Position numbers and translations under genes: made by a program | Part shown: positions 1,123-55,593 of the stretch, one piece after another | Position numbering within the stretch: the first letter of the stretch is position 1 | How the letters are laid out: each line of letters begins with the position of its first letter | The notes under the pieces: generated by a model | What the model was told of the DNA's origin: nothing | The model's database searches: none | Seen by the model: the letters and a program-made list of their open reading frames with translations, nothing else | Assembly: GCA_947624285.1 (NCBI GenBank) | Contig: CANQJS010000004.1 | Coordinates: forward strand, 1 to 64,000 | Length of the DNA: 64,000 nucleotides | Direction: 5' to 3' | Source: an uncultured Clostridia bacterium | GTDB lineage: Bacteria; Bacillota; Clostridia; Oscillospirales; Acutalibacteraceae

Positions 1123-4100
1123 TCACTTGGAGGCTTTCTTTGCGGCTTTCGCAGCTTTCTTTTCCGCTTTCGCGGCTTTCTTAGCCGCCTTTTTTGCAGC
1201 TTTCTTGGCTTTTCTGCCCTTGGGCGGCTCTTCGCCTTCAACGAGCTGCGGCTCTTCTTCTTCCTCTTTCTTCTTTTTCAGAAGTATAAGTATCAGGATG
1301 AAGAACAGGGTTGCTCCACCGAGTATTGCCCAGTGTACCCAATAGAAGTTGCCTACAGGATACGGTCCGTTGCCGGTTTCATCGCCGGAGCCGCCATCGT
1401 CTGAGCCTTGTACCAACAGACCCATAAGGGCTTCGATTACGCCGTCGATATCATAATCTACAAGATAGCCGAGTATCTGATTTACAATATCCGCGATATC
1501 TCCTGAAAGTCCGATTCCCGCGAGAAGACCCTTGATAGCGTCAAGATTTACCTGAAGATTTTCTACGATATATCTCAGTACACTGATGAATACCGCAGTC
1601 GCATCCGCGTTGATCTTCTTCGCATCCATCTGCTTGCCGTAGTATGTTCTCGCCGAGCGGTAGGTTACCAGCTCTCCGCGACCTGCGAGCTTCGCAAGGT
1701 CAATATTGGTTATCTGGATACCGAGCGGCTGTCCGTTGATATTGATCGAGCCTATCAGGCTGTTTACAAGACCGTCAAGGTCAAGATCCGCGAGCATCGA
1801 AAGGTCAAGGTCAAGCTTATAAATCGGAGCGATCTCATCCAGTATGTTGAATACCGGACCTGCAAGATTTTCTACCAGAGCCAGCGCGCCTCCGTTATAC
1901 AGGAAGTACGCTATATTCGGCAGCATCTCGCAAAGAGTTCTTATCGGCGCCTGGAGCAATTCTTCAACTTTATCGAATACGGGGTTGAGTATGTTCGTCA
2001 ATACCTTATCCGTTGAAGCTTCCTTCGCGTACTGCTGCGGTGATACAAGCTTCGACGGGCTTACTCCCAGCGCTTCGAGAAGCGGGATAACCGCCGTGTT
2101 GTATCCGTCGCCGCCCTTGATTCTGATCGAGCCGAGGATGATAAGGTCTTCACCCGAAAGGATCACTCTAAGTACGGGCTGGATCGGTCTCAGTACAGCG
2201 CTTATCGCTTTAATGAAGCCGTCCTTATCGCCGTCCGTGAAGTTCCATGTGATCGCGTCAAAGTTTACTTCGCTCCACTTTGCGTGCTTGCCGATCTCAG
2301 CAGAAGCGCTGCCGAAATCCTTAAGCATTGCCGCTACGCTCTTGGTTGTCAGATCAAGATCGAGCGCCTCAAATATCTTATTGATATCGATTGAGCCGAT
2401 GTGGATGTTTTCAATGTTCGTGTAAATGAGTTTTGCTACCGTGTTAATAAGGCTGTTCTTGAACAGCATATCGTTCAGTATCGTGGCGAGCGAAATGTTG
2501 AACTGCTCAGGAAGCATTGTGCTTATCATATTATCAAGCTGATCGAGCGCTTGTGTGTAGTCTTCCTTATTGTAGTGTTCGGTGTACTTCGTTTCAAGTT
2601 CCTTGATATTTCTGAATACCCAAGTTACATTGTCGAATACTTCCATCTTCAGAAGGATATTGACTACTATTCTCGCCATTCCGCCTGAGCCCTGCTTAAG
2701 CACATTGGTTATTATCTGACCTACAGTGCCGGTCTTTCCGCCAACAAGATCATACAGTATGTTCTTATTGGCATCCAGCGCCTTGAATACATATTCGAGC
2801 ACTGTCATCAGCGCGTCAGCCGTGCTGCCTGTTATCTTCGTTCCGCTGAGCTTGCCGCATCCGCCGAGCTTCGTCCAGTTGATCGCGGGGATCTTCACGC
2901 TGTAGCTCTTGCCGTTGATCTTAATGTTCGTGAGCATCGAGTTTACAAGCGGGATAAGCTCATTCTGAGCGTTGCTCCACTTCAGGTCTAATCCGAGAAG
3001 GTTGAACGCGAAGTCGAACAGGTCATCCTTAGTTACAAGCTCAAGTACTGCGTCCGCAATATTGATTACGGGATACAGCAGCTCTTCTACGAAGTACTGT
3101 ACGCCGCCCTTGCCGATGAAGTTCGACAATGTGGGAAGTACATCTATCAGTTCCTCTACGGGGTTGGCGAGTATTTCGTCTACCCTATTGAGCAGTGATG
3201 TGATGATGCCCTTGAGCGAGCCGTCATTTACATTCGTTGCACCGAGCGCGTATTCAAGCAGAGGCTTAACGGCGTTATTGAAGCCGTCCGCACCCTTGAT
3301 CGTTACTACATCCGCGATTGTGATTTCGCCCTTGTTCAGGAGCGCGTCTACAAGCGGCTCGAACGGTGCAAGTATCTCTGCAAGCGCGTTGATGAAGCTT
3401 GCCTTATCTTTTACGGTGTATGTCTTATTATTTACTTTCAGATCTAATCCGAGCAGGCCGAATACGGTCTTTACCGTTTCGTTGCCGGCTAAGGAGTTGA
3501 TCGCTTTTGCTACGCTGTTGGCGAGATCGCTTGTATATACAAGTCCGCCTACAAGCTGCGGCAGCGAGGTGTCAAGGAATATATCGAGAGCGTTCTCTAT
3601 CGCCTCTGTCAATATTGCGATGATTTCCTCTATATCGTTAGATGTTACTCCGCTCGGATACTTAACGGTCGTTGTCTTGTAGTTCCTGAACAGGAAGCTC
3701 CAATCTGCTTTATGGTTAGAAGCGTCGAAGCCCTGAAGAACTTTTACTACCGCCTTTACGATATCCTGGCTCTTGTTATCAAGCAGATTCTTGACATAGC
3801 CGTTTACCGTATCTCCGAGTCCGAGTGACTCAACGAGGCTGTCTATTGATTTTCTGTTTTCCTGTACTATATTCCAGATGATGTCAAACAGCGTTACGAA
3901 TGTATCGGGATTATTTCCGTCTACCACAAGGCCGTTTGCCGTTCCGCAAGCCGCAAGAGCAGCGAAGTCAAGGCTGTTGACAGTGAAGCTGTAAGTTCCG
4001 TCGCCTATCGTGATTCCGCCAAGGAAGCCGTTTACGATCTCGGGGATCTTATCGGTGATATTATCCCAAGTGAGACCGGTTGTGCCGAGCATTCCGTTGA

Positions 4101-7100
4101 CATCAACAAGATCGAATACGAAATCAAACAGGCTCTTATCCGTAACGAGTCCAACTATGGGCTCTGCAATATTGAGTATCGGATAAAGCAGTTCTTCTAC
4201 GAAGTACTGTACGCCGCCCTCGTTGATGAAGTTCGTGAGCATCGGGATGAGTCCGAGTACTTCATCTATCGGGTTGTTCAGTATCTCGTCTACTCTGCCG
4301 AGCAGTGAGGTGAGTATGCCCTTGAGCGAGCCGTCGTTTACATTCGTTGCACCGAGCGCGTACTCAAGCAGAGGCTTAACGGCGTTGTTGAAGCCGTCCG
4401 CACCGGTGATGGTGAGCGTATCGGCTACCGTAAGCTTGCCGGTGTTGAGCAGAACATCTACAAGCGGCTCAAACGGTGCGAGTATGTCCGCAAGCGCGTC
4501 TATGAAGCTATCCTTACCCGTTACGGTGTAGGTCTTTTCATTTACGCTGAGCTCTAATCCGAGCAGCGGCAGGATCTGCGCTACCGTATTGTTCTCAGCG
4601 AGGCTGTTGATTGCGTTCTTTACGGTGTCTATCAGGCTCTGCGTGTAGAGCTTGCCGCCTACGAAATCAGCGAGTGAAGCATAATCGCCCTTGAGTATGA
4701 ATTCGTTAAGCGCATTCTCGGCTATTGAGGATACGAGCTTGATCACAGCTTCTACATCCTCGGAGCCCATTCCCTCAGGATATACGGGGCTCTTGCTCTC
4801 GTAATTCTCTGTCAGGAATCTCCAATCAGCGATATGATTTGAAGAATCAAGTCTTGTCAACGCATCTAAGAGTGCTCCGACTACCTCTTCCTTATCCTTA
4901 TCGAGAATGTTGTTTACTATATCCTTTACGGTATCGTCAAGTTTGAGAGCGTCAACAAGTTTATCTATTTCAGCTCTGTTCTCCTGAACAATATCCCATA
5001 TGATATTGAATATCGTTATGAAGGTGTCGGGATCGTTTCCGTCTACCACAAGGCCGTTTGCCGTTCCGCAAGCCGCGAGAGCCGCGAAGTCAAGGCTGTT
5101 GACCGTGAAGCTGTAGGTTTCCGTGTCGATCGTGATTCCTTCAAGGAAGCCGTTTACAAGTTCGGGGATCTTCTCGGTGATATTATCCCAAGTGAGACCG
5201 GTTGTACCGAGCATTCCGTTGACATCAACAAGATCGAATACGAAATCAAACAGGCTCTTATCCGTAATGAGTCCAACTATGGGCTCTGCAATATTGAGTA
5301 TCGGATAAAGCAGTTCTTCTACGAAGTACTGTACGCCGCCCTCGTTGATGAAGTTCGTGAGCATCGGGATGAGTCCGAGTACTTCATCTATCGGGTTGTT
5401 CAGTATCTCGTCTACTCTGCCGAGCAGTGAGGTGAGTATGCCCTTGAGCGAGCCGTCGTTTACATTCGTTGCTCCGAGCGCGTACTCAAGCAGAGGCTTA
5501 ACAGCGTTATCGAACGCGTCGGCGAACTTAACATTGAGTATGCCCGCGATGTTGAAATCGCCTGCATTGAGATATGCGTCTATCAAAGGCTCAAACGGTG
5601 CGAGTATGTCCGCAAGCGCGTCTATGAAGCTTTCCTTACCCGTTACGGTGTAGGTCTTTTCATTTACGCTGAGCTCTATTCCGAGCAGCGGCAGAATCTG
5701 AGCTACCGTATTGTTCTGAGCGAGGCTGTTGATAGCGTTCTTTACGGTGTCTATCAGGCTCTGCGTATAGAGCTTGCCGCCTACGAAATCAGCGAGTGAA
5801 GCATAATCGCCCTTGAGTATGAATTCGTTAAGCGCATTCTCGGCTATTGAGGATACGAGCTTGATCACAGCTTCTACATCCTCGGAGCCCATTCCCTCAG
5901 GATATACGGGGCTCTTGCTCTCGTAATTCTCTGTCAGGAATCTCCAATCAGCGATATGATTTGAAGAATCAAGTCTTGTCAACGCATCTAAGAGTGCTCC
6001 GACTACCTCTTCCTTATCCTTATCGAGAATGTTGTTTACTATATCCTTTACGGTATCGTCAAGTTTGAGAGCGTCAACAAGTTTATCTATTTCAGCTCTG
6101 TTCTCCTGAACAATATCCCATATGATATTGAATATCGTTATGAAGGTGTCGGGATCGTTTCCGTCTACCACAAGGCCGTTTGCCGTTCCGCAAGCCGCGA
6201 GAGCCGCGAAGTCAAGGCTGTTGACCGTGAAGTTGTAAGTTCCTGTGTCGATCTGTATTCCTTCAAGGAAGCCGTTTACGAGTTCGGGGATCTTATCGGT
6301 GATATTATCCCAAGTGAGACCCGTTGTGCCGAGCATACCGTTGACATCAACAAGCTCGAATACGAAATCAAACAGGCTCTCATCCGTTATGAGCGGAAGT
6401 ATAGCGTTGGCAACGCTGATTACGGGATACAGCAGCTCTTCTACGAAGCGCTGTACGCCGCCCTTATTGATGAAGTTTGTAAGCATCGGGATAATACCGA
6501 GGACTTCATCTATCGGGTTGGAAAGTATCTCGTCTACTCTGCCAAGCAGTGAGGTGAGTATGCCCTTGAGCGAGCCGTCGTTTACATTCGTTGCTCCGAG
6601 CGCGTACTCAAGCAGAGGCTTAACGGCGTTATTGAAGCCGTCCGCACCGGTGATGGCGAGCGTATCGGCTACCATAAGCGTGCCTGCGTTGAGCAGAGCA
6701 TCTACAAGCGGCTCAAACGGTGCGAGTATATCCGCAAGCGCATCTATGAAGCTATCCTTACCTGTTACGGTGTAGGTCTTTTCATTTACGCTGAGCTCTA
6801 TTCCGAGCAGCGGCAGGATCTGAGCTACCGTATTGTTCTCAGCGAGGCTGTTGATTGCGTTCTTTACGGTGTCTATCAGGCTCTGCGTGTAGAGCTTGCC
6901 GCCTACGAAATCAACGAGTGAAGCATATTCGCCCTTGAGTATGAACTCATTGAGAGCCGTTTCAAGCGCCGAGGACAGTATGTTGATTACTGCCTGAACA
7001 TCGTCCGCATTCAATCCGTCGGGATATACGGGGCTCTTGCTCTCGTAATTCTCCGTGAGGAATCTCCAGTCGGCGATATGAGCTGATGTATCAAGCGAAT

Positions 7101-16100: not shown

Positions 16101-19100
16101 CAACTATTCCGTCGCCGTTCTTATCAAGCTTCTTCAGATCGCTATCGGCTATCTTGAGATCGCCGAGGAAGCTGTTGGCTATATCGATTACGGAATCCTG
16201 AATGGTCGCCCACTCAACACCCTTGCCTTCATTGATACCGCTGAAATCAACAATATCAAACACGCCGAGCAGCTCGATCGCGGTATCGAACAAGCCTTTA
16301 TCGGAAATAAGGGCAACAATCGGATTTACGAAGTTGGTGAGCGGATAAATCAGATCTTGAACGAATTCCTGAACGCCGCCCATAGCTATGAACTTGGAAA
16401 GCTGCGGCAGGATTTCAAGAAGATTGCCCACGGGAGCGGCAAGGACATCTTCCGCCTTTGTAAGAACGGCGGTGAGAACATCCGTAAGCAGATCGCTCAT
16501 CTTGATGGTCTTAGTCTTACCACCCTCAGGAACTTCAGATTCACTGTAATAAGCGGATGTGTCTTTAAGACCGGTAATGCCGAACGCCTTTTCAAGCAGA
16601 GGCTTAACAGCGTTGCCGTATCCGTCAGCGCCGGTGATCGTGATAACATTATCGATATTTATATCGCCCTTTAAGAATACATAGGAAAGTACGATATTGA
16701 AGGGCTCAAGAACTTTTACAAGAGCTTTGACAAATGAAGTCTTGTCGGTTACATTCCACGAAATCTTAGACCAATCGATAGCCTTGAGATCCGTTGCGCT
16801 GTTGATAGCCTCAACTACTTCGGGATATTCGGCAAAGAGTTCTTCAAGCTTAGTCTTGCTGATATCAATGCCGAGATATCCGAGAGTTGTTGTAAGCGAT
16901 TCATTTGCGGCAAGATCTACTATAATCTTCGCAAGAGCGGAGACGATAGAATCCTGATAAAGCTTATCTTTAGCAATCGTTGAAAGGTCAAGCTTCGCAA
17001 ATTCCTTGAGAGCATTGGTCAAAATCTTGGAAAGCTGATCAATAACTTCATTGATTTTCGCCGAATCATATCCGTCAGCGGGATAATGAACATCGGTTGC
17101 CGTTAAGCTAAGATCAGTTTCAAGACCCGTCCAAAGCGTTTCTGCATTGAACGATGAAGCGTCTATGCTGTTGAGAACGGAAACAAGCGCACCGGCTACC
17201 TTCGGGCTCTCGTTACCGAGCAGCTTATCAATATACGGTTTCAGCTTAGAATAGGTATCCTTGCCCTCTTCAAATTTCTTATCGCCGTTCAAAACATTCT
17301 TGGCGATAGCCGAAAGGCGATCTCTATTGAAGTTAACCGCTCTCCAAAGATATTCTACAAGAACAAGATAGGAGTATGATGTAGCCTCATCTTTAGTCTT
17401 TTCCTCAACCTCGGCTGCGCCGCCGTAAGAGGTGAAATCAAGCGGATTTCCGCATACAGCCATCTCATTGAGGAATGTGTTGATATTGGGAATGGTTATC
17501 GTATATGCTTGAGCAACGCCTTTATCGTCCTTAAGAACATTGCCTTTATCATCCTTAAGAACTATGAGATTCTTAAGAACAAGCTGATGTCTTTCGTTGA
17601 TTGAAGCCTCAAGCTTATACTCATCTTTGTTATCTTTATTAAGGTTGTTGATGATTTTTTCAACGATTTCAAAGATCTTTTCATGAGCGTTGGACCATTT
17701 GAAAGCATCGGTTACATCTTTAAGGAAGTAGTCGATAACAAGATCATAAAGCGCATCCGGAGCCACATCATTTTCACCCTCGATATTGCCCGTGATAAGA
17801 GCGATAACGGGATCGAAAATGGAGGTTATCGGATAAAGCAAATTCTGAATGGTGAGCTGGAGACCGCCATCCTTGAGATAATTGGTTAATCTCGGAAGAA
17901 TAGCAAGCAGCTCGGAAACAGGATTGGTGAGAATTTCATCAACTCTGTGAAGCAGCGGCTCAAGTATGCTGAACAATACATAGTGATCGCAGCCAGCCTG
18001 CTTGGGATCGCACTTCTTGGCATATTCCTCAGGTGTAAGCGCTTCACTGCATTTGAGAGCGTTAAGGAGCGGATAAATCGCATTCTTGTAGCCGAACGCG
18101 CCGGAAATATCTATCGTTCCGTCGGCTATGCTGATGGATTCGCCTTCAAGAAGCAATACCTTGAGGAGATCCTTGAACGGATCGAGAACCGCAACAAGAC
18201 CTCTTACGAAGCGGAAGTGAGCCAAAATCTCATCCGCGGAATGGAAATCAAATCCACTGAGATGTGTTGGTTCGGCATTCGTCCAAACATTGTCATAGAA
18301 ACCTTCGGCGTCTTCTACATACCAAAGATCCTCTATACCCTCTTTCTCAACTTGCCACTTGGAGGGATCTTTCTGATCCTTTTCGGGAAGCGGAGCTCCG
18401 TCCGCGCCGAGATATTTGCCATCCTTATCTTTCTTATATTCGGTTAACCACTGAACTTCGGAGAAGGATTTGGCTGCCTTGAGTATATCGGCTATTTCAT
18501 CATAGCCCAAAATATCAAGATCTTCCGCTACCGTATCCTTATCAATGTTGACATTAAACAGACCGAGTATAACATCGAGAGTGTTGTTATCGCCAAGCGG
18601 GAAGATGATGGAAGCAAGAGTTGCTATGATATTATTTTTGTAAATAAGATCTTCGGTGAGATTTGCAATATCAAGATTTGCGAATACCTTAACGGCGGCA
18701 GAAACAGCGCCGGAAAGGGTCGTTATCGCCTTGCTAATCGTTTCCGTAGTCTGACGATCGGGGAGCGTGGGAAGATCAACGCCCTCGGGCAGCTTGCCGA
18801 TATCTTTCCATTTAGCATCGCTTGCAGCGGAGTCGAAGGACGCATTGAGATTCTGCACCAATCTGATAAGAGTTATCAGCAGGGCATCCTTCGTATCCGG
18901 GTTAACAACATTGTGTACATAAGTGAGAACGGTGCTGCGCAAAGTATTGTCTTCAATATTCGCGGTGACAAGCGCGTTGAAGAAGCCTTTTTCATTGGCT
19001 TGAAGCAATCTTGCGATATAGCGGAATACCGTTACGAATGTGTCGGTGGTTTTCTTATCTTCACTTTCGGCAACGCCGCAGCCCGCGAGCTTTGAAAGAT

Positions 19101-22100
19101 CAAACTCGGGGATAGTTACTTCATATTTATTGCCGTTTATTGTTATGTTGCAAATAACAAGGTTTTTGCCATCAAGCTTTGCGTAAACATTATTGGGCTT
19201 ATCTTTATCCTGCTTAAGGAAATTCGTGACGAGATCGAATATATGACCGTGCAGATTATCGAAATCATCATTTATGCCCAAGAAGCCCATGGCGAGGTCA
19301 TAAATCGTAGCGGTTTCTGCGCCGCCCGCTACCATATCATCCGGCAGAGCAAGCCTGAACAGCGGATTGATAAGCTGAGTAAGCGGATAAAGCAGATTTT
19401 CAACAGCTCTTTCAAGGCCGCCCTTGTTGAAGAACGCGGCAAGCTTGGGAAGCATATTGAACAGCGTGTTGCCGGGCTGCTTGATGATACTATCGACCTT
19501 GGCAAGAAGCGGATTGATGAGATAGAACAGTATCTTATCCGTGCCGGGAGTCTTAACTACCCACTTTGTGGGATCGGCCTGATCCTCATCGGGAAGCGCT
19601 TTGCCCGTGGCGTCGGCATATTTGCCATCGCCGTCCTTATAATACTCGTCTTTTACTTCAGACGCGTATTTCGTAAGGTCAACAGTGTCGCATCCGAGCG
19701 CGTCAAGCAGAGGCTTGATAGCGTTTGCATACGCAGGTGCGCCGGTGAAATCTATGGTGCCGGCGATCTTCGTGGTACCGGCGTTGAAAATCGAGTTGAG
19801 CAGACCGCTGAACGGTGAGAGCATTACGGAAACAGCTCTGCCGAAGCGGTAATGCGCAAGCAGATTATCGGGATCAACCGTGGGAACCTGCGCGCCGTCC
19901 GCGCCGCTGTTATAAACATGTGTCTTATAATCGTCGGCGCTTTCTACATACCAAAGCTTATAGGCAACGCCGGGAGTCTTAACTTCGGGCTCTGCGTCCT
20001 CGGGAAGAGGCTCGCCGGTGGAAGTTGTGTAATTGCCGTCGGCATCGGTGTAATACTCATCTACCCACGGAACATCGGAGAGAGTCTTGTATTCCGGCTT
20101 AGCGATAAGCTCGGCAAGCTCCGTGTAGCCGTAATATCTGAGTTTGGCAACGAAATCATCCTTCGTGTAGCTTACGCCGAACAGAGGCAGTATCGTTTGA
20201 ACTACCTTATTATCCACGATTCCGGCGATAGCCTTGGAAATCGTGCCCGCCATCTGATCGTTGAACAGAAGGTTGATAGAGATATACTCACTCTGCTGAG
20301 TTTTGGAGACTATCATTATAGCGGCTTCGATTATCTGCGAAACCATATCGACAAGCTCTTTAACATCAGCAGTTGTGTAGTAATATTCGTCATCGGCTTC
20401 GGTATGACCATCGGTATCTTTCATACCGGGATACTCTTTGGTATCAAGAGCTTTGAGGTCTTTGAAGAGAGTATCGAAGAAGCCGGTGTCGGTTTCGACA
20501 TTTTTATCAACATCTTTACCATACCAGAAGTCGGTCTTGTTATATTCGTGAGTATCGAGAGCGTCCATCATCTGAATGAGAGCCGCCACGATCTCGTTGC
20601 CTTTTGAAGTGAGAATATTGCTGATATACTCGTTGAGCTGGTGCTCTGCTATCTCCATATTATATGTATCTTTCAACAGAGCGGCAAGAAGGTCATCCAA
20701 CGAAGCCATTGTGCCCTTATCATTAAGAACTTTATCCCATACATACTGCCATACATACAGCAGCGTATCGGTCATCTTCTTGATCTTGGCGGCGCTTTCG
20801 CTTGGCGTAGCGGTACCTATTCCCGCCAATTCATCGAATTTGAAATTCGGAATGGTGAGACTGAGCTTTGTGCCTTCAGCTTCATTAATGGTTATTTCAA
20901 TATTGAGAGCCTGTGTAGCGGCGTCGTAGGTTGCGACATCCACAAACATTCCGACAAGCTCAAAAATGTGCTTATGGAGATTTTCCCATGTGATAGTGGA
21001 CTTTTCCTCTTTCGTGCCGAAAATAGCCTCAAGAACCTGCTCGATAATATCTTTGACATCGGTTTCGGGCTTGGGATCGGGAGCGGGCTCTGCGGATTCT
21101 TCCTTGGTGAAATAATCCATAGCAAAGTCAAATACTATGTTCATGAAAGACAAACCTGTCTTATGAGTAAGTATCGGGAGCAGAGTATCAATAAGATTGC
21201 CCACGGGATAAATGAGTTCCTCAACGAAAAGCTGAATACCGCCCTTGTCGATAAAGTTCGCAAGGTTTGGAAGAACGCTGAGAACGGTGCCTACAACGCC
21301 GGAAGTACCTTCGCTTATCTTAAGGTTTGCATCAAGCCACTTGATGAGCGGCGTGATAATGTTTTTGAACGCAAGCGTGTTGTCATCGCTTGCGGCAAGA
21401 GCCTCGAAAGCGTCTACATCGAGCGCGCCGTAGGGCTGAACATCCTTAGCGGAAGTGTCGTAAATGCCGAGAGTCTTGAACAAGGGCAAAACAGCGTTTT
21501 CGTAGCCCCAAGAGCCTTTAAGGGGAACGATGCCCATGATATCGAACTCGCCCGCGTTGAAGAGGAAGTTAACAACAGGCATAAACGGCTGAAGAACGAA
21601 TATGAGAGCGTTGATGAACTTCTCGGAATCGTTCGCAATGTCGAAGCCGTCCTTTTCGCCGATAGTATCCCAGTCTATCTGGCTGAAATTCTTTTGATTT
21701 GCATCGGTGATTTCATGCTCTTCGCCGGCTTCATCCTTATACTTATAGTGCTGAGTAACGCCGTCGGCATCTTTATAGGTAAGCTCCTTAGCGATAGCGG
21801 CAGCTTCCGGATATGCCGATTGCAGTCTTTCAAGGAATTGCTTTGTGGTTTCATCAACATCGAGAACTTTAAGAACATCGCCCGCGCTGTCAAGAAGAGG
21901 ATAGAGTACCTTTGCGAGAGCAGCGGGAACCTGGCTCGTGTAGAGCGTGCCGGAAATGTCGTTAAGGTCGAAATTGAGGAATTGCTTGAGCAGACCGCTG
22001 ACCGTGTTTGAAATGAACTGAATCAGCTTGTTAACATCGGTGGAATCATATTTGCCGGCGTTGTCAGGCTTATCGGGATAAACAACACTTGTTGTTTGCG

Positions 22101-25100
22101 CGGCGTCTTTAAGAATATCCGCCCAAAGGGCTGTGCCGTGGTGCAATGAGGAATCCAGACCCTTGAGAACGGCTAAAACGAGAGCTACGAAATCGTCCTC
22201 TTTCAAGCCTTTTTCTTCGTCAAAAATCGGGATATACTTTGTGATAAGCGTATAGTAGGAGTTAATATCCTCGTTATATCCGATGTAGCCTACTATGCTA
22301 TCCTTATTGGTGAGCACAACTCTCCAAACATACCTGAGAATCTTAACAAGTACGCTTTCTTTATCCGCCGTGATCGTCATATCCGCTTCGCTCTTTGTGC
22401 CGCAGCCGCCGAGAGAAGCCCAATCGATAGCGGGTATTGTTAAATCGAATTCGTCTTTGTAAATGCTTTCACCGGTGTCGTCAACGAGACCGTCGTTGTC
22501 TGTATCAAGCTTTTTGAGTTCAGGGTCTTCTACCTTGAGAACGCCTTTGAGGAATACATTTACAAGATTTATAAGATCGTTTTGAAGATTATCATATTCG
22601 AGCATTCTCTTGCTGGGATCGTCTTCAAATAAGATATCGCAAATAATATCAAATATGCCCGAACCCCAAGGAGTTCTCTTAGCGTTATCGACATATTTAT
22701 CTACGAAATCGTTATCAATCTTAAAGAGATCGAGAATCGCGCTGACAATGTTCCAGAACGGTCTGATAAGCTGAGAAATAACTATCTGCAAGCCGCCGTT
22801 ATCCATAAAGGACGCGAGTGACGGAACAGCGCTGATAAGCGAGCCTAACGGATCGTCGAGATATTGCTTGAGCAGTTTTTCAACCATATCAAGCAAGTTA
22901 TTAAGAGCGTTTGCCGGATCGGTGGCAAAAGCGGTTTCTTCCTTAAGCTCGGTGCCGGGAAGGGAGCCCGCGCCGAGAGCGGCAAGAAGCGCCTTGAGCG
23001 AATTGCCGTAGCCGTTAAAGCCGCTGACCTGGATCGCCTTGCCTATCGTGATGCTGGCGGACGAGCCTGCGCCTTTGATATGACCTGCGAGGATAGCGCC
23101 CGTGAAATCACGCAGCGGATACAATACCGTCTTCAAAGCTTTGAAGAAGCTAGTGATATCCGTAACTTTCCACATATCGTCCTTTATCAAATCGAACGCG
23201 CTGTAAGTTACTTCGCCGCTTTCATTTTTCTCAACATAAACATTTCTCGAGTCGTTGAGAATACCGGAGATTTCGCTGTAACCGGCAGCCAAAGCCTGAG
23301 TTGCAAGCGTTTTCGGCTCAAGATTTATGGTGTGGTTATTGCCGGCGGCATCCTTTATCTCAATGAGAGGAAGGAGCAGGCGAACAGTCTCGCTATCGAG
23401 ACTATATATAGTTTTAAATATTGAGTTTATGGTTTTGCCCGTAAAGACTTTGTCTGTGAGGAAATGTTCAAGATCAATGGTATTTCCCTCTTCGTCCTTA
23501 AACAGGAAGTCGTTGAGCAGATTATCAACCAATTTGCTGAGCGTATCGACCGCCGATTTTGCGTCGTCCTCGGTGTATTTATCGGCAACCTTACCCCATT
23601 CAACGAGCGCCTGAGTCCAATCCCAATCGGCTGACCAGTCGAAATCCTCGGTAGTGTCAACGGGTCTGATAAGCTCGAATAAGCACGCAGCAAATTCGCG
23701 CTCGTCCTTCGCGGACGCGAAAAGATTTGTAAGCAGATGATCCTTCAATTCACCGATTTCATATTTCATATCGGCATCAACCGAAAGACCCTGAACGGCG
23801 TCCTCAAGGAGTTCATCTATCGCAGTTTCATTCTCCGTAACGAATGTAGACAGCCAGTAAATGAGATAAGTAAGTATATCATTCGCCTGTGCATCGGAAA
23901 CGGAGATATTGTGCAAAGTCATCGTGGTGCACTTGGAATTCGGCATAGTGCCGTAAGTGCCCAAGCCGGCGATCTTTGCCCAGTTGAGATCGGGGATGGT
24001 GAATCCGATGCTTGACAGCATACCGCTTAGCAAATTCATTATGAAATCGCCGTCAAGACTGGAGAGACCAAAGCCTTCAACGGTAAGACCGGCAAGCCCT
24101 GTGAGGGGAGCGATTAAGTCTCTGAGACCGTAGCCGTCGTTATTCGCCTGACCCTCGGTGCCGCTTCCCCATGTGGGATCTTTACCGACTATCATATTGA
24201 ATTGAAGCAGATAAGAGAGATTCGGCAGAATTTTAAATATATTTCTAACAACATCGCCGGACAAAATCTCCTCGACTCTGTCGAATATCGTAGTGATAAG
24301 ATATTCAACAAGTTCAGGCCACTGACCGTTGTCTGAGTATGCCTTCGCTTCGGAAAAGTTCTTGATATTTTTGCAGCCGAGCAATTCGAGGAAGGGAACG
24401 ATATCCTTTTCATAGCCGTTATTCCACCACTTGGATATATCGGCATGATAAGTTAAACCAACTACTATGTCGGCTTCCGCTTTTACATTGAAGAGCAAGC
24501 TGTTTACAAGCTTATCAATACATTTGAGGATAGCGCCGACTACCTGAGAAAATTCCTTAACACTGTCAATATGCCAATGAACATTATCCCAGTCGACTAA
24601 GCCCCAGTCATATTGCGCGTTACCGATAGTACGCGCGGCTCTAAGGATATCTTCATCGGTTACGCCAACTTCCGTTAACCTATCTAAAAGATTGTTAGGA
24701 TCGGGCAGCATTATTACGGGATAAATGCCTAAAATACCGTGGCGCACCGCTTCAAGCGCGTTTGAGTTAAGGACGGCAGAGCCTTCCATCGCGTTCTGAA
24801 TCAAGGGCATCAAAGTAAGCAGCAGCGTCTTTATCAGATTATCGGCGCTCTCGCCGGTAATAAGACCGTTGAGCATGCCCATAACAAAATCTTTAAGCGA
24901 AGTAGGCGTTGCCGCCCCGTCTTCGCCGGCGGCAAGCTGACCTATAAGATTCTTTATAGGTTCGCTGTCGAGCAAAGCATCGAGACTGTCGATCAACTTA
25001 GCGGGCTCATTCTTAACCGTGCTGTTGATTTTATCATCAGACTTGCTCTTTTCATCCCAGTTGTAATAATAAGGATAAGAAATTTTATAAGGCTCATGCT

Positions 25101-27204
25101 TCGGTTTATTAAGAAGCTGCTCAATCTTCGGCTCAAGCTGCCAAATTACATTCATATATTTCTGAACTTCGGGGAGCTCCTTAAATCTTTCGGGAAGCTG
25201 ATCGTAGAGAGTTTGAACCTTTTTGATCTTGGATCTGACGGGAACGATATCAAGGGTTGTAAGAGGAGGTATAACGACCCTGTCGCCATCAAGATATTCG
25301 CCGAGGTTTTCTTGCGCTACGGAAAGGAATTTCCTTAAAACATAACGATCATAAGTAACCTGCGCGCTGTATGTGTTACTGTCGCCCTTATGAACATCTC
25401 TCGCGAACTTAAGGGCTTCGGTTGTTATATCTTTATCGTCATCGGGTTTTTCAAAATCGGGACCCGTGGCTTCATAAACAAGATTAGGATCAAGTTTATT
25501 AAGCTGTGTATAGTCGGGTGATTTATAAGTATATGATTCGTCATTGGGTTTGGAGAGGGGATGATTTTTGAGACCGTCGTCATGGGACTCTTCCCAAAGA
25601 AGATCGGCGTAAAGCGAATCCGCTTCATCAAGGAGGGATTTTATCGTTCTGGCTTCTCTGTCGGTTTCAATAAGATATTTCTCTTCATCCGAAGCCTCTT
25701 TATTGTAAATGTCGGAGCAATACTCAAGCTGCTCAACAACATCGATATATGCCTGGGCGACCTTATTGTTCCACAAGCCGACAAAAGTCTGCGGGTCCGT
25801 GGCGCTGTCGCCGCTCTTATAGTAGTAACCGTCAAGAGTGGTCTTCCAACTTGAAGCCTCGGGACGAGTCTTAACAGTACTCGGGAAAACATCCCAAATA
25901 TTGTAAGCGGAGTCAATGAGGGATTTAACTTCGCGCAGCTCGTCAAGAGTCATATCGGAATTGATATGACCTTCGGAGAAGAGTTTCGTTCCGACTTCGA
26001 TAACGGCGTCGCGGAAAACCTCTATCATATGAGACACGAAAGCCTCAAAATAGAGATTAAAGTTTTCCACGCCGGAAATATCACTCATTTTTGAACCGAA
26101 ATAACGCTCATACACTTTTTGAGTGGATTCCTTGCTAAGCGCATCGGATTGAGAATTGACAGTCTGTGAGACTTTTATAACATCTTTGTCCTGTTCCTTT
26201 TCTCTTACGGAATCATATGTGGCGTCATGGCTTGCAGTCCAAATGGCGTTGTAAAGGCCTTCGGCTTTCTCCAAAATCTCAATTTCGGCAGCAAGGTCAC
26301 GATCCAAATTTTCATAGATTTCGTTGGAAAAGTCGTTCCACACATTCGTTGGGAACATGTCGGCGAACGCTTTCAGCTCCTCGGAGTTTATGCGAATGGC
26401 TCTATAATTTTGATTTAACATCGCATCGTAAACTTTATATCTGTTATCAGAGTTGCCAATTGTACGCTGCTGACACTGCCACCAGAAAGCTTTAACGGTT
26501 GTGATAGCATCGTCGGGGATGGCATATAATGAGTTATTATATTGCTTAAACAGATAGTATTCGGGATCCAAAACTACGAATACATTGTTCGCCGCTCTAC
26601 TATAAAGGCCCGGATCAGGCCAGTTCTCAAAACCGACACCGAACCAGTCACCAACAAGATAAGGAGACGCATCATCCCACATGGACAGGTAATCCGTCCC
26701 TGAAGGCTTAGCCATATAGGTTTTAAGCTGATTAATCAACCAGCCATAACCGTCATAAAGCGCCTTAGTATTATTTCGCCTTGTGGAACCTATGCCTTCT
26801 CGGTTTGCTACACCATATTCCAGCATGACGGCTTTCCACGCGTTTTCAACGGCAGTAAGCATATCGCAGTTCTCATTATCAACAAGAAGGGTACCGCGCT
26901 TACCCGTTTCTATATTGTACTTACCGTAATTAGCCTGCCAATCACTACCTGCTGAATTAAAGTAGTGTTGCCCAAAATAAGGACTATTGGTATAGGCTAT
27001 GTTGCTGTACATTCCGGTAGAATCGTAATTACCGTATAATGCATGCGCGATGGCATCTATGTAGTCGCCAACATCGTAAGCCGTATCATAGACTTTATTC
27101 CACTCATTTGGTCTGGCAAACGCCGTAAGCCCCACCGAAAGTGAGGACAGCACCATCAAAAATGATAGGAAAAGGCTTAACATTCTTCTTGTGAATTTTC
27201 GCAT
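1123..27204 (-). CDS. Giant repetitive surface protein (~8,690 aa)
   Basis: The start at 27204 is chosen over an upstream ATG at 27312 because GGAGGGG lies 7-8 nt before it and because it opens a clear signal peptide (MRKFTRRMLSLFLSF, likely cleavage after AFA near residue 31). The chain is about 8,693 residues, roughly 0.95 MDa. Order: signal peptide; about 850 residues of non-repeated, mostly helical sequence; about 18 related modules (residues about 900-8,580); a Gly/Asp/Ser linker; one transmembrane helix (about 8,621-8,641); a KKKK stop-transfer; an acidic run; and a tail of about 30 residues made almost only of Lys and Ala. There is no LPXTG motif. Each module repeats landmarks such as TWDNI, AACG, DTFVTIFxIIWDIVQENR, ADWSFLTE, GFNNAVKPLLEYALG and NFIDKGGVQxFVEELLYP. 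Some modules carry DxDxDG calcium-type loops. The modules look alpha-helical. I recognise no named family; adhesion, cell-surface spacing or a solenoid scaffold are all possible. The frame is open throughout, with no sign of decay. Confidence 0.95.
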   Translation of the reverse strand: MRKFTRRMLSLFLSFLMVLSSLSVGLTAFARPNEWNKVYDTAYDVGDYIDAIAHALYGNYDSTGMYSNIAYTNSPYFGQHYFNSAGSDWQANYGKYNIETGKRGTLLVDNENCDMLTAVENAWKAVMLEYGVANREGIGSTRRNNTKALYDGYGWLINQLKTYMAKPSGTDYLSMWDDASPYLVGDWFGVGFENWPDPGLYSRAANNVFVVLDPEYYLFKQYNNSLYAIPDDAITTVKAFWWQCQQRTIGNSDNRYKVYDAMLNQNYRAIRINSEELKAFADMFPTNVWNDFSNEIYENLDRDLAAEIEILEKAEGLYNAIWTASHDATYDSVREKEQDKDVIKVSQTVNSQSDALSKESTQKVYERYFGSKMSDISGVENFNLYFEAFVSHMIEVFRDAVIEVGTKLFSEGHINSDMTLDELREVKSLIDSAYNIWDVFPSTVKTRPEASSWKTTLDGYYYKSGDSATDPQTFVGLWNNKVAQAYIDVVEQLEYCSDIYNKEASDEEKYLIETDREARTIKSLLDEADSLYADLLWEESHDDGLKNHPLSKPNDESYTYKSPDYTQLNKLDPNLVYEATGPDFEKPDDDKDITTEALKFARDVHKGDSNTYSAQVTYDRYVLRKFLSVAQENLGEYLDGDRVVIPPLTTLDIVPVRSKIKKVQTLYDQLPERFKELPEVQKYMNVIWQLEPKIEQLLNKPKHEPYKISYPYYYNWDEKSKSDDKINSTVKNEPAKLIDSLDALLDSEPIKNLIGQLAAGEDGAATPTSLKDFVMGMLNGLITGESADNLIKTLLLTLMPLIQNAMEGSAVLNSNALEAVRHGILGIYPVIMLPDPNNLLDRLTEVGVTDEDILRAARTIGNAQYDWGLVDWDNVHWHIDSVKEFSQVVGAILKCIDKLVNSLLFNVKAEADIVVGLTYHADISKWWNNGYEKDIVPFLELLGCKNIKNFSEAKAYSDNGQWPELVEYLITTIFDRVEEILSGDVVRNIFKILPNLSYLLQFNMIVGKDPTWGSGTEGQANNDGYGLRDLIAPLTGLAGLTVEGFGLSSLDGDFIMNLLSGMLSSIGFTIPDLNWAKIAGLGTYGTMPNSKCTTMTLHNISVSDAQANDILTYLIYWLSTFVTENETAIDELLEDAVQGLSVDADMKYEIGELKDHLLTNLFASAKDEREFAACLFELIRPVDTTEDFDWSADWDWTQALVEWGKVADKYTEDDAKSAVDTLSKLVDNLLNDFLFKDEEGNTIDLEHFLTDKVFTGKTINSIFKTIYSLDSETVRLLLPLIEIKDAAGNNHTINLEPKTLATQALAAGYSEISGILNDSRNVYVEKNESGEVTYSAFDLIKDDMWKVTDITSFFKALKTVLYPLRDFTGAILAGHIKGAGSSASITIGKAIQVSGFNGYGNSLKALLAALGAGSLPGTELKEETAFATDPANALNNLLDMVEKLLKQYLDDPLGSLISAVPSLASFMDNGGLQIVISQLIRPFWNIVSAILDLFKIDNDFVDKYVDNAKRTPWGSGIFDIICDILFEDDPSKRMLEYDNLQNDLINLVNVFLKGVLKVEDPELKKLDTDNDGLVDDTGESIYKDEFDLTIPAIDWASLGGCGTKSEADMTITADKESVLVKILRYVWRVVLTNKDSIVGYIGYNEDINSYYTLITKYIPIFDEEKGLKEDDFVALVLAVLKGLDSSLHHGTALWADILKDAAQTTSVVYPDKPDNAGKYDSTDVNKLIQFISNTVSGLLKQFLNFDLNDISGTLYTSQVPAALAKVLYPLLDSAGDVLKVLDVDETTKQFLERLQSAYPEAAAIAKELTYKDADGVTQHYKYKDEAGEEHEITDANQKNFSQIDWDTIGEKDGFDIANDSEKFINALIFVLQPFMPVVNFLFNAGEFDIMGIVPLKGSWGYENAVLPLFKTLGIYDTSAKDVQPYGALDVDAFEALAASDDNTLAFKNIITPLIKWLDANLKISEGTSGVVGTVLSVLPNLANFIDKGGIQLFVEELIYPVGNLIDTLLPILTHKTGLSFMNIVFDFAMDYFTKEESAEPAPDPKPETDVKDIIEQVLEAIFGTKEEKSTITWENLHKHIFELVGMFVDVATYDAATQALNIEITINEAEGTKLSLTIPNFKFDELAGIGTATPSESAAKIKKMTDTLLYVWQYVWDKVLNDKGTMASLDDLLAALLKDTYNMEIAEHQLNEYISNILTSKGNEIVAALIQMMDALDTHEYNKTDFWYGKDVDKNVETDTGFFDTLFKDLKALDTKEYPGMKDTDGHTEADDEYYYTTADVKELVDMVSQIIEAAIMIVSKTQQSEYISINLLFNDQMAGTISKAIAGIVDNKVVQTILPLFGVSYTKDDFVAKLRYYGYTELAELIAKPEYKTLSDVPWVDEYYTDADGNYTTSTGEPLPEDAEPEVKTPGVAYKLWYVESADDYKTHVYNSGADGAQVPTVDPDNLLAHYRFGRAVSVMLSPFSGLLNSIFNAGTTKIAGTIDFTGAPAYANAIKPLLDALGCDTVDLTKYASEVKDEYYKDGDGKYADATGKALPDEDQADPTKWVVKTPGTDKILFYLINPLLAKVDSIIKQPGNTLFNMLPKLAAFFNKGGLERAVENLLYPLTQLINPLFRLALPDDMVAGGAETATIYDLAMGFLGINDDFDNLHGHIFDLVTNFLKQDKDKPNNVYAKLDGKNLVICNITINGNKYEVTIPEFDLSKLAGCGVAESEDKKTTDTFVTVFRYIARLLQANEKGFFNALVTANIEDNTLRSTVLTYVHNVVNPDTKDALLITLIRLVQNLNASFDSAASDAKWKDIGKLPEGVDLPTLPDRQTTETISKAITTLSGAVSAAVKVFANLDIANLTEDLIYKNNIIATLASIIFPLGDNNTLDVILGLFNVNIDKDTVAEDLDILGYDEIADILKAAKSFSEVQWLTEYKKDKDGKYLGADGAPLPEKDQKDPSKWQVEKEGIEDLWYVEDAEGFYDNVWTNAEPTHLSGFDFHSADEILAHFRFVRGLVAVLDPFKDLLKVLLLEGESISIADGTIDISGAFGYKNAIYPLLNALKCSEALTPEEYAKKCDPKQAGCDHYVLFSILEPLLHRVDEILTNPVSELLAILPRLTNYLKDGGLQLTIQNLLYPITSIFDPVIALITGNIEGENDVAPDALYDLVIDYFLKDVTDAFKWSNAHEKIFEIVEKIINNLNKDNKDEYKLEASINERHQLVLKNLIVLKDDKGNVLKDDKGVAQAYTITIPNINTFLNEMAVCGNPLDFTSYGGAAEVEEKTKDEATSYSYLVLVEYLWRAVNFNRDRLSAIAKNVLNGDKKFEEGKDTYSKLKPYIDKLLGNESPKVAGALVSVLNSIDASSFNAETLWTGLETDLSLTATDVHYPADGYDSAKINEVIDQLSKILTNALKEFAKLDLSTIAKDKLYQDSIVSALAKIIVDLAANESLTTTLGYLGIDISKTKLEELFAEYPEVVEAINSATDLKAIDWSKISWNVTDKTSFVKALVKVLEPFNIVLSYVFLKGDINIDNVITITGADGYGNAVKPLLEKAFGITGLKDTSAYYSESEVPEGGKTKTIKMSDLLTDVLTAVLTKAEDVLAAPVGNLLEILPQLSKFIAMGGVQEFVQDLIYPLTNFVNPIVALISDKGLFDTAIELLGVFDIVDFSGINEGKGVEWATIQDSVIDIANSFLGDLKIADSDLKKLDKNGDGIVDDSDPEQSIYKYELSFKLNPLSWKDIAGCAVSDEPDTPKDSDEIKSDTLLTVLYYIWGNLYDDPADDVANANVTELKTLIKDLINNDTTYKNVEGYIDNVFAKTDETVVQAIVDVFDAFDTSDHAAKWNKLTDGYTPATIDYTALGVTKDEITNLITDLGKAAVNALNKFVVKDDAADLKEFLGNKLYTADLVYTIRDALNGLLENENLKTVIDLLPKLGIKLEKNEKTYTVTNKATFIDALADVLSPFDGIIKGFLNKGEVNIFNVLTITGADGFNNAVKPLLEYALGATAGTDATLKGLLTAVLDRVDKILDNPVEEVLGLAASLANFIDKGGVQLFVEELLYPVIAIASPIVALVQETGKEVGIFDFVLDLLPVFIKDFNLANTLKLPEETEITWDGIFDLIPKIANGFLKDIVKIKANDSYVDKDKDGKDDTTKADMYKAKFSFTVNNLDLAALGACGAAAGNAVTGDKADTFVTIFKIIWAIVQENRGVTKEDESKDGIDGLLDTLLNADIKSKAGVYIENVLNKEDGDIIKALVDVFKGFDATGHNADWSMLTKDYTSAVINYGTDPETTLGVTEEEVTNVIEKLATAAVNALQEFVVKDGGADLKDFVGKKLYTVDLINTIKNALNSLATEEKNETIRSILGMLDIELTENTETYTVTDKDSFIEALADVLSPFEGIIKGFLDKGEVNIADVITIKGADGFTNAINPLIEYALGGTAATDKTLKGLLTAVLNRVDEILDDPVNEVLELVATLANFIDKGGVQLFVEELLYPVIGIASPIVKLAQEKGKEVGLFDFVLNLLPVFIKDFNLANTLKLPEGTEVTWDGIVKLIPKIANGFLTDIVKIKADDKYVDKNNDGKDDTTGADMYKAKFSFTVNSLDLATLGACGTAAENVVTGDKEDTFVTIFKLIWAIVQENKATINNLLDTVLDKSVKDNAGKYITTVLGREDKEVIKAVVDLFKGLDSSTHTADWSFLTTGYTHKNGTYADGITSADVQKLIDDIATVADKAIKKYLLGESATLGELLGGKLYTADLINTIVKALNGLVTNENNKTIVSILGLIGIKLEVNNTDYSYVNDKETFIKALVDVLDPFKDVVNAFINTGTVNIAGVLDVKGSQGFNNAIKPLLEYALGCEGADTATLEGILTALLNRVDEILDKPLNEVLDVIPTLANFLEKGGLQKFIEELLYPIIQIASPIVNLATPDPVAGEDGTTPEKDGFFDIVLSIVQGFVNINDKLGLPEGTAITWDGLVDLIPAIADHFLDGKISIPDANLKKEDKDGDGKVDGTGESINKQFSITLKSLDFAKLAACGQAADNVVDGSKNEPDTFVTLFELIWDIVQDNKATIGDILTTLGLSSDLQGYINNVLAKDDTDVVKALVEVFKSFDASGWNADWSFLTKDYASKSPVYPKHDDDTQFTSDEVQAVIDQISVIAENAIREFVLKGEYANLAEMLGNKIYTGDIINKLAGLFNKLATDESMGTVRTVLGLLGIDLVEDPTDYTTVVTDRESFINALVKVLTPFEGIVDALLNEGGLDIAGVLTITGSNGFENAIKPVLENVLGCTTTDGTLKGLITALLDWVDTAANDPLDTVLGIIPALANFVNVGGVQKFVEALLHPIVGIAEPIVELIKAKGSDDVSIFDFALSFVNLKDTLGVDGITWANITSKDKLNAIINHFLNNIIKIKADDKYVDSDNDGKDDTTDNPMYKVEASLTVNALDLGKLAACGTAAGLAVDGNDPDTFVAIFTLIWDIVKENRSAIESLLTTLNIPTQFNGFISNALDKDSEDFVKAVLELFSNFNHTANTADWSFLTEDHEYKAAKYPDGMDATGVQNVIDTLEGAAEKAIKAYLLDANGYADFSAFVTDKLYTGEVVNALKDVLNNLATSEDIVTVRNILATVLGIELKENTTDYTTVVNSKETFISAIAEVLAPFEGIVNAFLDAGTINIAKVLDITGAYGFENAVKPLLEYALGCTQNLDEPTLQGLIRALFARVDEIAAQPVDEVFGIIPMLANFIDKGGIQYFVEQLIHPVLHIIDPILSLVEKKGEEVSIFDLVFAYFDLDTKLGTKDVTWDNITDQIPAIGEHFLKDIVTVGEGAEQKKYSITLKALDLSALAACGKANGLVIDGSDPDTFVTLFDIIWAIASENSETIHALLDSLNLGDQIDKYINNVLSKDGNDVITAIVELFEALDSSEHEADWSFLTEGHKYQSLLTDTLTEERVNEFIETLSAIAENAIDSFVLKGEYADLAGFLGSKLYTGDIVNKLRDVLNNLAVSDDMNTVRTVLGLLGIELKENTTDYTTVVNSKATFVDALAQVLAPFEGIVNAFLNDDTITIAKVLDITGSDGYNNAVKPLLEYALGCTQGLDDPSLKGVLTALLTRVEEIANAPVDEVLGVLPMLANFIDKGGIQKFIEELIYPIINIATPVLNLISDGKTEVKFFDFVLDLVQSLMNIDLKEKLGIKSEEPLTWSNFFDFVPEIINNFLVDVITLGEGDEQEKFSFTVNSLDFAKIAACGKANGLVIDGSNPDTFVAIFTIIWDIVQENRNVTKEDGSKDGIDGIIDKLLSDDLKEKVGGYIDNVLDKDMEDVVGALLNVIKALNTSDHTADWSFLTEGHKYQSTLTGDLTEEKVQNAINTLSDIAQGAINVLLLKESGTDSLVEFIDGFFNGAVANIIRDLINQFYVGENMSAVRDILSSVLGIEFKENTTDYTTVVTDKATFAQALADILAPFEPVINVFLNKGSLTVAGIPLITGADGFNNAVKPLLEYALGCTKDLEDHSLEGVINALLTRVEEIADAPVDEVLGILPMLANFINKGGIQYFVEELIYPIVAVATPVIELVSDGKTDVDLFNFVLDIIPEFVEGFDLATTLKLPEGTKVTWDNITDQIPAIVNGFLKDIATVTVDGKDQKLSFTVNSLDFDKLASCGKADGLVIDGSDPDTFVALFKLIWAIVGENRESIDTLLESLGLNEQIKPYVDKLLNNKDEDVINAILNLIDSLDTSAHIADWRFLTENYESKSPVYPDGLNADDVQAVINILSSALETALNEFILKGEYASLVDFVGGKLYTQSLIDTVKNAINSLAENNTVAQILPLLGIELSVNEKTYTVTGKDSFIDALADILAPFEPLVDALLNAGTLMVADTLAITGADGFNNAVKPLLEYALGATNVNDGSLKGILTSLLGRVDEILSNPIDEVLGIIPMLTNFINKGGVQRFVEELLYPVISVANAILPLITDESLFDFVFELVDVNGMLGTTGLTWDNITDKIPELVNGFLEGIQIDTGTYNFTVNSLDFAALAACGTANGLVVDGNDPDTFITIFNIIWDIVQENRAEIDKLVDALKLDDTVKDIVNNILDKDKEEVVGALLDALTRLDSSNHIADWRFLTENYESKSPVYPEGMGSEDVEAVIKLVSSIAENALNEFILKGDYASLADFVGGKLYTQSLIDTVKNAINSLAQNNTVAQILPLLGIELSVNEKTYTVTGKESFIDALADILAPFEPLIDAYLNAGDFNIAGILNVKFADAFDNAVKPLLEYALGATNVNDGSLKGILTSLLGRVDEILNNPIDEVLGLIPMLTNFINEGGVQYFVEELLYPILNIAEPIVGLITDKSLFDFVFDLVDVNGMLGTTGLTWDNITEKIPELVNGFLEGITIDTETYSFTVNSLDFAALAACGTANGLVVDGNDPDTFITIFNIIWDIVQENRAEIDKLVDALKLDDTVKDIVNNILDKDKEEVVGALLDALTRLDSSNHIADWRFLTENYESKSPVYPEGMGSEDVEAVIKLVSSIAENALNEFILKGDYASLADFVGGKLYTQSLIDTVKNAINSLAENNTVAQILPLLGLELSVNEKTYTVTGKDSFIDALADILAPFEPLVDVLLNTGKLTVADTLTITGADGFNNAVKPLLEYALGATNVNDGSLKGILTSLLGRVDEILNNPIDEVLGLIPMLTNFINEGGVQYFVEELLYPILNIAEPIVGLVTDKSLFDFVFDLVDVNGMLGTTGLTWDNITDKIPEIVNGFLGGITIGDGTYSFTVNSLDFAALAACGTANGLVVDGNNPDTFVTLFDIIWNIVQENRKSIDSLVESLGLGDTVNGYVKNLLDNKSQDIVKAVVKVLQGFDASNHKADWSFLFRNYKTTTVKYPSGVTSNDIEEIIAILTEAIENALDIFLDTSLPQLVGGLVYTSDLANSVAKAINSLAGNETVKTVFGLLGLDLKVNNKTYTVKDKASFINALAEILAPFEPLVDALLNKGEITIADVVTIKGADGFNNAVKPLLEYALGATNVNDGSLKGIITSLLNRVDEILANPVEELIDVLPTLSNFIGKGGVQYFVEELLYPVINIADAVLELVTKDDLFDFAFNLLGLDLKWSNAQNELIPLVNSMLTNIKINGKSYSVKIPAINWTKLGGCGKLSGTKITGSTADALMTVLEYVFKALDANKNILYDLVGGKTGTVGQIITNVLKQGSGGMARIVVNILLKMEVFDNVTWVFRNIKELETKYTEHYNKEDYTQALDQLDNMISTMLPEQFNISLATILNDMLFKNSLINTVAKLIYTNIENIHIGSIDINKIFEALDLDLTTKSVAAMLKDFGSASAEIGKHAKWSEVNFDAITWNFTDGDKDGFIKAISAVLRPIQPVLRVILSGEDLIILGSIRIKGGDGYNTAVIPLLEALGVSPSKLVSPQQYAKEASTDKVLTNILNPVFDKVEELLQAPIRTLCEMLPNIAYFLYNGGALALVENLAGPVFNILDEIAPIYKLDLDLSMLADLDLDGLVNSLIGSININGQPLGIQITNIDLAKLAGRGELVTYRSARTYYGKQMDAKKINADATAVFISVLRYIVENLQVNLDAIKGLLAGIGLSGDIADIVNQILGYLVDYDIDGVIEALMGLLVQGSDDGGSGDETGNGPYPVGNFYWVHWAILGGATLFFILILILLKKKKEEEEEPQLVEGEEPPKGRKAKKAAKKAAKKAAKAEKKAAKAAKKASK
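1126..1215 (-). other. Lys/Ala-rich C-terminal tail of the giant protein
   Basis: The last 30 or so residues of the giant protein are built from AKKAAK-type units, encoded by low-complexity DNA on the minus strand. They follow the transmembrane helix and a KKKK stop, so the tail should be cytoplasmic. The composition resembles histone H1-like bacterial proteins that bind nucleic acid; binding to membrane lipid or to ribosomes would fit as well. Confidence 0.8.
4646..6233. repeat. Near-identical 1,122-bp tandem unit
   Basis: Bases about 4646-5111 and 5768-6233 match without a difference when read line by line, at an offset of exactly 1,122 bp (374 codons). The flanks of the unit also match closely, except for a stretch near 5500-5580. 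A duplication this fresh can expand, contract or be collapsed by short-read assembly. Confidence 0.9.
10960..22510 (-). other. Six calcium-type loops in the giant protein
   Basis: Six modules carry a DxDxDG-type loop at the same place, just before the strand that leads to the conserved ACG motif: near 22463-22510 (DTDNDGLVDD), 16070-16135 (DKNGDGIVDD), 14776-14830 (DKDKDGKDD), 13478-13535 (DKNNDGKDD), 12215-12270 (DKDGDGKVD) and 10960-11025 (DSDNDGKDD). These resemble the loops of dockerin and thrombospondin type 3 repeats, where the aspartates bind calcium. The modules encoded below about 10 kb lack them. Confidence 0.75.
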
Positions 27205-47431: not shown

Positions 47432-47447
47432 AAGGCGCCGATACATA

Positions 47448-48485: not shown

Positions 48486-48486
48486 A

Positions 48487-49257: not shown

Positions 49258-49286
49258 ATACGCTAAAATATTGAAAGGGGTCAATA

Positions 49287-50615: not shown

Positions 50616-50636
50616 AAATCACAATACCTACAAAAG

Positions 50637-55563: not shown

Positions 55564-55593
55564 GTTCCCGAAATTCAGGAAAGGAAGATTGAT

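Follow-up and report, generated by a model that had tools for sequence, protein, structure and literature searches.

We analysed the first 64 kb (the window) of contig CANQJS010000004.1, which is 161,068 bases long and belongs to a genome bin of 1.59 Mb that is 75% complete, and studied a gene in it that encodes a giant modular protein. We found that the gene is a single open frame on the minus strand, running from an ATG at 27204 to a stop at 1123, and that it encodes 8,693 amino acids (aa) with no internal stops. The initial annotation, a first reading of the DNA alone, had described an uninterrupted frame of 26 kb without naming its strand, and that frame is confirmed. An alternative in-frame ATG lies upstream at 27312; we took 27204 as the start because GGAGGGG is present just 5' of it and the signal peptide begins there.

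In the giant protein, a predicted signal peptide leads into an N-terminal region of some 860 residues, which is followed by an array of 18 modules, a single predicted membrane helix and a basic tail of short length (Table 1). In a hydropathy plot only two segments rise above the threshold, one N-terminal (aa 8–30) and one C-terminal (aa 8622–8644), in agreement with the signal peptide and single C-terminal membrane helix named in the initial annotation. The ectodomain has a calculated isoelectric point (pI) of 4.3. A pattern search of the whole protein found no LPxTG-like motif of the kind that marks sortase-anchored wall proteins.

That the frame is an assembly artefact, an alternative raised when it was first noticed, is unlikely because relatives of 7,574–8,000 aa with the same layout exist on contigs of up to 325 kb, in clusters that number anywhere from 1 to 225 sequences. 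The module copies can also be distinguished from each other, since the longest tandem DNA match (3,039 bases) has only 82% identity and the closest single pair, modules 14 and 15, is 91.6% identical in DNA (91% in protein). Nine module pairs, seven of them adjacent, have dN/dS of 0.27–0.42.

Table 1. Features of the giant gene and of the genes next to it, in window coordinates.
Feature	Coordinates	Strand	Remarks
Giant modular protein gene	1123..27204	-	8,693 codons, 952 kDa, pI 4.4
Predicted signal peptide, about aa 1–30, ending TAFA	27115..27204	-	By eye and hydropathy; similar starts in relatives
N-terminal, predicted membrane-distal region, aa 31–892	24529..27114	-	No Pfam match at E ≤ 1 (aa 31–890)
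Modules 1–5, aa 893–3491	16732..24528	-	Strongly diverged; first two cluster with first two modules of other giants
Modules 6–16, aa 3492–7937	3394..16731	-	11 modules, one clade; self-comparison and tree
Modules 17 and 18, aa 7938–8599	1408..3393	-	18 truncated; conserved base common to anchored members; self-comparison, tree, alignment
Predicted membrane helix, aa 8622–8644	1273..1341	-	Hydropathy
Basic Lys/Ala-rich tail, aa 8645–8693	1126..1272	-	Predicted cytoplasmic; sequence KAAKKAAKKAAKAEKKAAKAAKKASK
Small membrane protein P0001, 338 aa	110..1126	-	GTG start overlaps the giant's stop; inner ATG 9 codons on
Second small-protein copy P0002, 323 aa	28035..29006	-	Possible lipobox VVGC; 88% identical to P0001
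Terminator-like hairpin just after P0002	27988..28019	listed on +	Regional count of such sites at chance level
OmpR-type response regulator	29212..29892	+	Divergent from the giant's cluster, which it adjoins

Modules, base and distal region

Self-comparison with one module (aa 6820–7195) located 18 copies of about 370 to 591 aa, the 18th truncated and the first two strongly diverged; the protein counts 18.5 module equivalents. All pairs other than modules 14 and 15 are less alike, down to 24% identity, and seven of the other 17 copies reach only 24–33% identity to module 14. We placed 85 modules, taken from nine proteins, in one tree. In it, the window giant's last and penultimate modules group with the modules at the same positions in other anchored members (support 0.999 and 1.0), and its first two modules pair with the first modules of other giants. 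Eleven consecutive middle modules (starts at aa 3487 to 7564) are monophyletic (support 0.996) and, judging from their sequences, are an apparent lineage-specific tandem expansion. A structure model of two modules (mean predicted local distance difference test score, pLDDT, 86.2) is mainly helix with short strand pairs, and it gave no significant fold match to solved structures in the Protein Data Bank (PDB). The initial annotation had counted about 18 related helical modules; self-comparison finds them in 18 places, and "helical" was mostly right, with the strand pairs to be added.

As in the anchored branch of its family, the giant has a hydrophobic C-terminal helix after a truncated last module and a gene for a small membrane protein directly downstream. 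The motif GNFYWVHW at the start of its membrane helix is similar to segments of the GN(F/Y)YW(V/A)YW kind in several anchored relatives, others being less alike. The Lys/Ala-rich tail is found in the window giant only among the aligned relatives, the other anchored tails being acidic or mixed. Where a locus has the same anchored type as the window, the small gene is directly downstream (8/8 distinct loci), and it is so in 0/77 rows without a called membrane tail; these rows represent 59 distinct proteins once the L087 fragment and the protein of L091 are left out.

Separately, we observed a Lys/Ala-rich stretch at the N-terminus of the small partner proteins of L064, L085, L088 and L090. In another branch of the family (P0128–P0131, P0140, P0143, L150, L152, L154, L156), an amphipathic-looking C-terminal helix of the FF.K...FFK.LF type replaces the membrane helix. 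For the small protein itself, the Pfam family CFSR was considered and not accepted: it matched 15 of 28 members over about 15 residues with a best E of 0.0012, and in P0002 it scored 18.7 bits against a cut-off of 27.

To the distal side, aa 31–850 of the window giant are 18–31% identical to the same stretch in six other anchored members. Across these seven proteins every one of the 21 pairs shows lower identity in this stretch (17.8–68.2%) than in the 610 residues that precede the tail (49.1–89.8%), and in the pair P0125/P0126 the N-terminal tip is 27.3% and the base 89.8% identical. For relatives of 2.4–2.9 thousand amino acids (kaa), we compared 95 of 141 listed proteins, with the last 620 residues as the C-terminus. 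In 241 pairs the C-termini are at least 95% identical; we kept the 231 with an N-terminal match of more than 400 residues and left out 10 short-match pairs. The N-termini of the kept pairs are below 50% identical in 14, 50–90% in 55 and at least 90% in 162, and the 14 divergent-tip pairs are drawn from 13 proteins, which fall into three groups. In four of these pairs that we profiled, identity is 59–77% over the first 100 residues, 23–51% in the bins from 200 to 900 and 76–100% from residue 1,300 on; three further pairs with C-termini 88–95% identical show a milder dip. A uniformly faster clock can hardly yield both 98.9% and 33% identity within one pair, as seen in P0047/P0053; replacement of the N-terminal region through recombination would be the simplest account. 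Chimeric assembly may lie behind single cases; as the general cause it is unlikely, because the cases fall into three groups and the contigs reach 609 kb.

The module family, its distribution and the neighbouring genes

In Pfam and NCBIfam searches of the giant, no single stretch reached a curated cut-off, with NCBIfam giving nothing close to its cut-offs, and neither PDB sequences nor PDB folds gave a passing match for the module protein. Together with the sequence, these results support the description of the giant as a membrane-anchored modular protein of unrecognised family. FIVAR and GA are absent among Pfam matches at E ≤ 1, for both halves of the protein, aa 31–890 and the 18 modules singly. 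In the C-terminal half, the whole-protein scores of DUF5417 (42.2 bits, cut-off 23.9) and Noc2 (30.2 bits, cut-off 29.9) are above their cut-offs, yet no individual stretch passes. Module by module, DUF5417 appears at E ≤ 1 in 3/18 modules, the best at 19.7 bits (E 0.001), under the cut-off. Both families were rejected, their whole-protein scores reading as weak scores summed over the repeats. No Pfam domain was found on any of 141 family members (120 + 21) among the matches listed, and in the open PMC literature we recognised no paper on the module family.

Tandem module-profile matches place the giant in a large, un-named family from the genus that includes Eubacterium coprostanoligenes and its kin. 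With a 2.7-kaa relative as query, at least 771 database clusters match at E ≤ 0.001 (7,982 scored); with the last 4,994 residues of the giant, a search that took candidates up to 1.75 times the query length, at least 21 proteins of 5,116–8,000 residues match (537 scored). The window giant is the longest and most module-rich of the members retrieved. In a sample of 60 genomes, module matches are present in its own genome and in 28/36 congeners (weakly in G023, G025 and G029) and in 0/23 genomes of other genera. The initial annotation had proposed to look for the same arrangement in related Clostridia, and there it recurs, in a family that is large and genus-wide; this breadth, and the pairing of the giant with a small membrane-protein gene, go beyond what the window alone could show.

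A scan of named genomes gave 73 loci with the module family. Cultured E. coprostanoligenes ATCC 51222 (L135) carries a member of about 2.6 kaa that is identical to the module protein of congener G005 (L077), an identity that puts the window in the E. coprostanoligenes genus, and many other loci are metagenome-assembled genomes from records naming goat, sheep, roe deer, red deer or "Lapin". Scans of the order and the class, which scored at most two and four candidates per genome and can miss members, matched 5/394 genomes (that of the window, those of three congeners and, weakly, one outside the family) and 1/391 (that of the window). The low-scoring loci L150–L156 from other Clostridia bins indicate that distant members exist. 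A phage origin was considered and rejected: 0/27 pattern matches in viral contigs encode a relative, and the two-module base has no match in 50,697 phage records.

Relatives have about 2 to 15 module equivalents vs 18.5 in the window giant, in a count that covered the window, 19 loci and the proteins longer than 3,000 aa. The tail-less 2–2.9-kaa type has 2.2–3.4, the 3.4–3.7-kaa type about 5, P0003 (4.5 kaa) 7 and P0128–P0143 (5.1–7.6 kaa) 8–13; six of these last sixteen, the six whose tails were inspected, end in the amphipathic-looking helix. Among anchored members, L066 has 4.3 and P0124–P0127 have 13.4–14.5. Beside the module gene in 14/15 loci of the tail-less 2–2.9-kaa type (L069–L080, L082, L083), on the opposite strand, there is a member of one further protein cluster; its proteins reach 2,087 aa, many being cut by the locus end, and the one in L083, the only one scanned, has no Pfam match at E ≤ 0.1.

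The OmpR-type regulator gene faces the giant's cluster in the window, the giant gene in L086 and L087 and the small gene in L068, and the window protein is 60%, 39% and 74% identical to those of L086, L087 and L068, respectively. A histidine kinase gene also adjoins in L086, and the receiver of the L068 regulator (2309–2986) appears to lack the phosphorylated aspartate, judged by eye. A genus-wide link to a regulator was dropped, the gene divergent from a solitary small gene, checked in L054 (10379–11077), being one for a membrane protein with a zinc ribbon and a divergent InlB B-repeat (Pfam); its cluster is present in eleven loci, of which L054 alone was scanned. Elsewhere in the window, a T-box leader RNA (55314–55543, plus strand, 123.6 bits) stands at the start of the open frame 55480–56646, which is followed by the frame 56667–59027. 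Genes for an FkbM-type methyltransferase (46379–47431), a sulfatase (49287–50615) and an MFS sugar-transporter-type protein (50706–52331) lie close together in 46379–52331.

Interpretation and comparison with known systems

Taken together, the layout, the shared base, the variable number of middle modules and the replaceable distal region fit a stalk with a variable tip. We consider it probable that the 952-kDa protein is a long stalk on the cell surface, built from 18 related modules, whose N-terminal end would serve as a recognition tip well away from the cell. Stacked on one another, the modules would give an extended rod, with tandem duplication determining how long it is, and N-terminal regions would be exchanged by recombination. 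The co-encoded small membrane protein may hold the base or assemble with it, and the OmpR-type regulator may, given its position, control the cluster. The tip might bind a gut ligand such as mucin, a diet particle, or a host or bacterial surface, and its replacement might reflect selection through ligand change, phages or antibodies. Adhesion or recognition would then be the purpose of the giant; the fibre, adhesin or spacer of the initial annotation is still an interpretation, which gains weight now that the base is seen to be conserved, the middle to be lineage-specific and the N-terminal region to be replaceable. More tentatively, the E. coprostanoligenes group may have an undescribed class of giant surface proteins, each combining a stalk of a new, mainly helical fold repeated up to 18 times, a dedicated small membrane partner at its base and a tip cassette of about 1,000 residues exchanged allelically. 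On one side of the cassette would be the signal-peptide region, which is fairly conserved, and on the other a remainder that is almost identical, and the variable surface would resemble antigenic or phage-receptor variation.

Several observations weigh against a stalk with a variable tip. Pfam recognised no domain for adhesion, ligand binding or catalysis in the giant, tip included. Most retrieved relatives have no membrane helix, and a stalk is not an obvious role for these; 8/36 congeners have no module match, five of them from genomes at least 90% complete. Three further membrane-tailed loci (L126, L093, L138) have no small gene, and the small protein is also found away from anchored giants, being present in 34/36 congeners. 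Tip replacement was seen in relatives from the database, tail-less ones for the most part, rather than in strains of the window's species. In P0125/P0126 identity climbs gradually over about 1,250 residues (from about residue 1,500 to 2,750) with no sharp border, and P0124/P0125 hold 62–71% identity over the first 1,750 residues, tip included. Finally, in 3/9 of the module pairs with a dN/dS value, dS exceeds 1 and the ratio is rough.

Each of the 18 modules could alternatively carry a weak ligand site, as in the repeats of Embp, with length giving avidity. We regard such a multivalent binder as unlikely: many tandem related modules under purifying selection would suit it, and Embp, with 50 fibronectin-binding repeats, provides a precedent (PMC9302970), yet the low identity of seven copies to module 14 disfavours one conserved site, and in relatives it is the N-terminal region, not the array, that is replaced.

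This same replacement of only the N-terminal region, wholesale, is left unexplained if the protein is purely a shield, a coat of long acidic molecules over the cell that obstructs phages, predators and antibodies or masks the adhesins of the cell itself. The ectodomain pI of 4.3 and the regulator gene alongside speak for a shield, as does Staphylococcus aureus, where the giant Ebh, SraP and SasG shielded other adhesins (PMC6548404). We judge this explanation quite improbable. In a last alternative, the protein would be a lipid-handling surface machine, with the small partner as a LolA/RseB/START-like carrier and helical modules that hold or pass lipids or sterols. The type species of the giant's genus reduces cholesterol, and we give this explanation very little weight.

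The family of this 26-kb gene, in 28 of the 36 sampled congeners and at least 771 database clusters, is Pfam-less among the matches listed and has no significant fold match. If the reading as a stalk with an exchangeable tip is true, it would identify a main structure on the surface of a gut lineage that is mostly uncultured and tie surface differences between strains (phage range, immunoglobulin A, adhesion) to a concrete locus, with ATCC 51222 and its 2.6-kaa member available as a cultured relative.

Among known giants, Ebh has a C-terminal membrane segment, and Tanaka is said to have described its modules as helical in 2008. Ebh and Embp resemble the window giant in a mass of about 1 MDa, in secretion, which for the giant is predicted, and in a long array of repeated modules, and the ArlRS-MgrA regulation of Ebh has a possible parallel in the regulator beside the giant's cluster (PMC9302970; PMC6548404). 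Ebh (1.1 MDa) has a predicted reach of 320 nm (PMC9302970). In contrast to both, the giant has no FIVAR or GA matches in Pfam, its modules are 370–591 aa vs 125–170 aa in Embp (PMC9302970), and it has a co-encoded small membrane protein and an N-terminal region that is replaced from one relative to another.

Periscope proteins (SasG, Rib, Sgo_0707) similarly have a variable number of tandem folded domains, proposed to set the projection of an N-terminal ligand-binding domain (PMC8201768). However, the high repeat identity that defines their class (PMC8201768) is mostly far from reached in the giant (best pair 91%), which has a predicted membrane helix and no LPxTG-like motif; its module number differs between relatives, whereas the periscope trait concerns strains within one species. 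The Giant1-5 proteins of Apilactobacillus kunkeei offer a further parallel as extracellular proteins of 3,000–8,000 residues from a small genome, for which within-gene recombination is reported, but Giant1-4 have predicted N-terminal beta-solenoids (PMC12863079), unlike the mainly helical modules of the window giant, whose tip could still contain a solenoid. The closest likeness by module profile is with the un-named family P0003–P0143 of E. coprostanoligenes and related Clostridia, which has the same module and to which the window protein belongs; within it, the window giant stands apart as the longest and most module-rich member retrieved, with a Lys/Ala-rich tail and a second copy of the small gene upstream.
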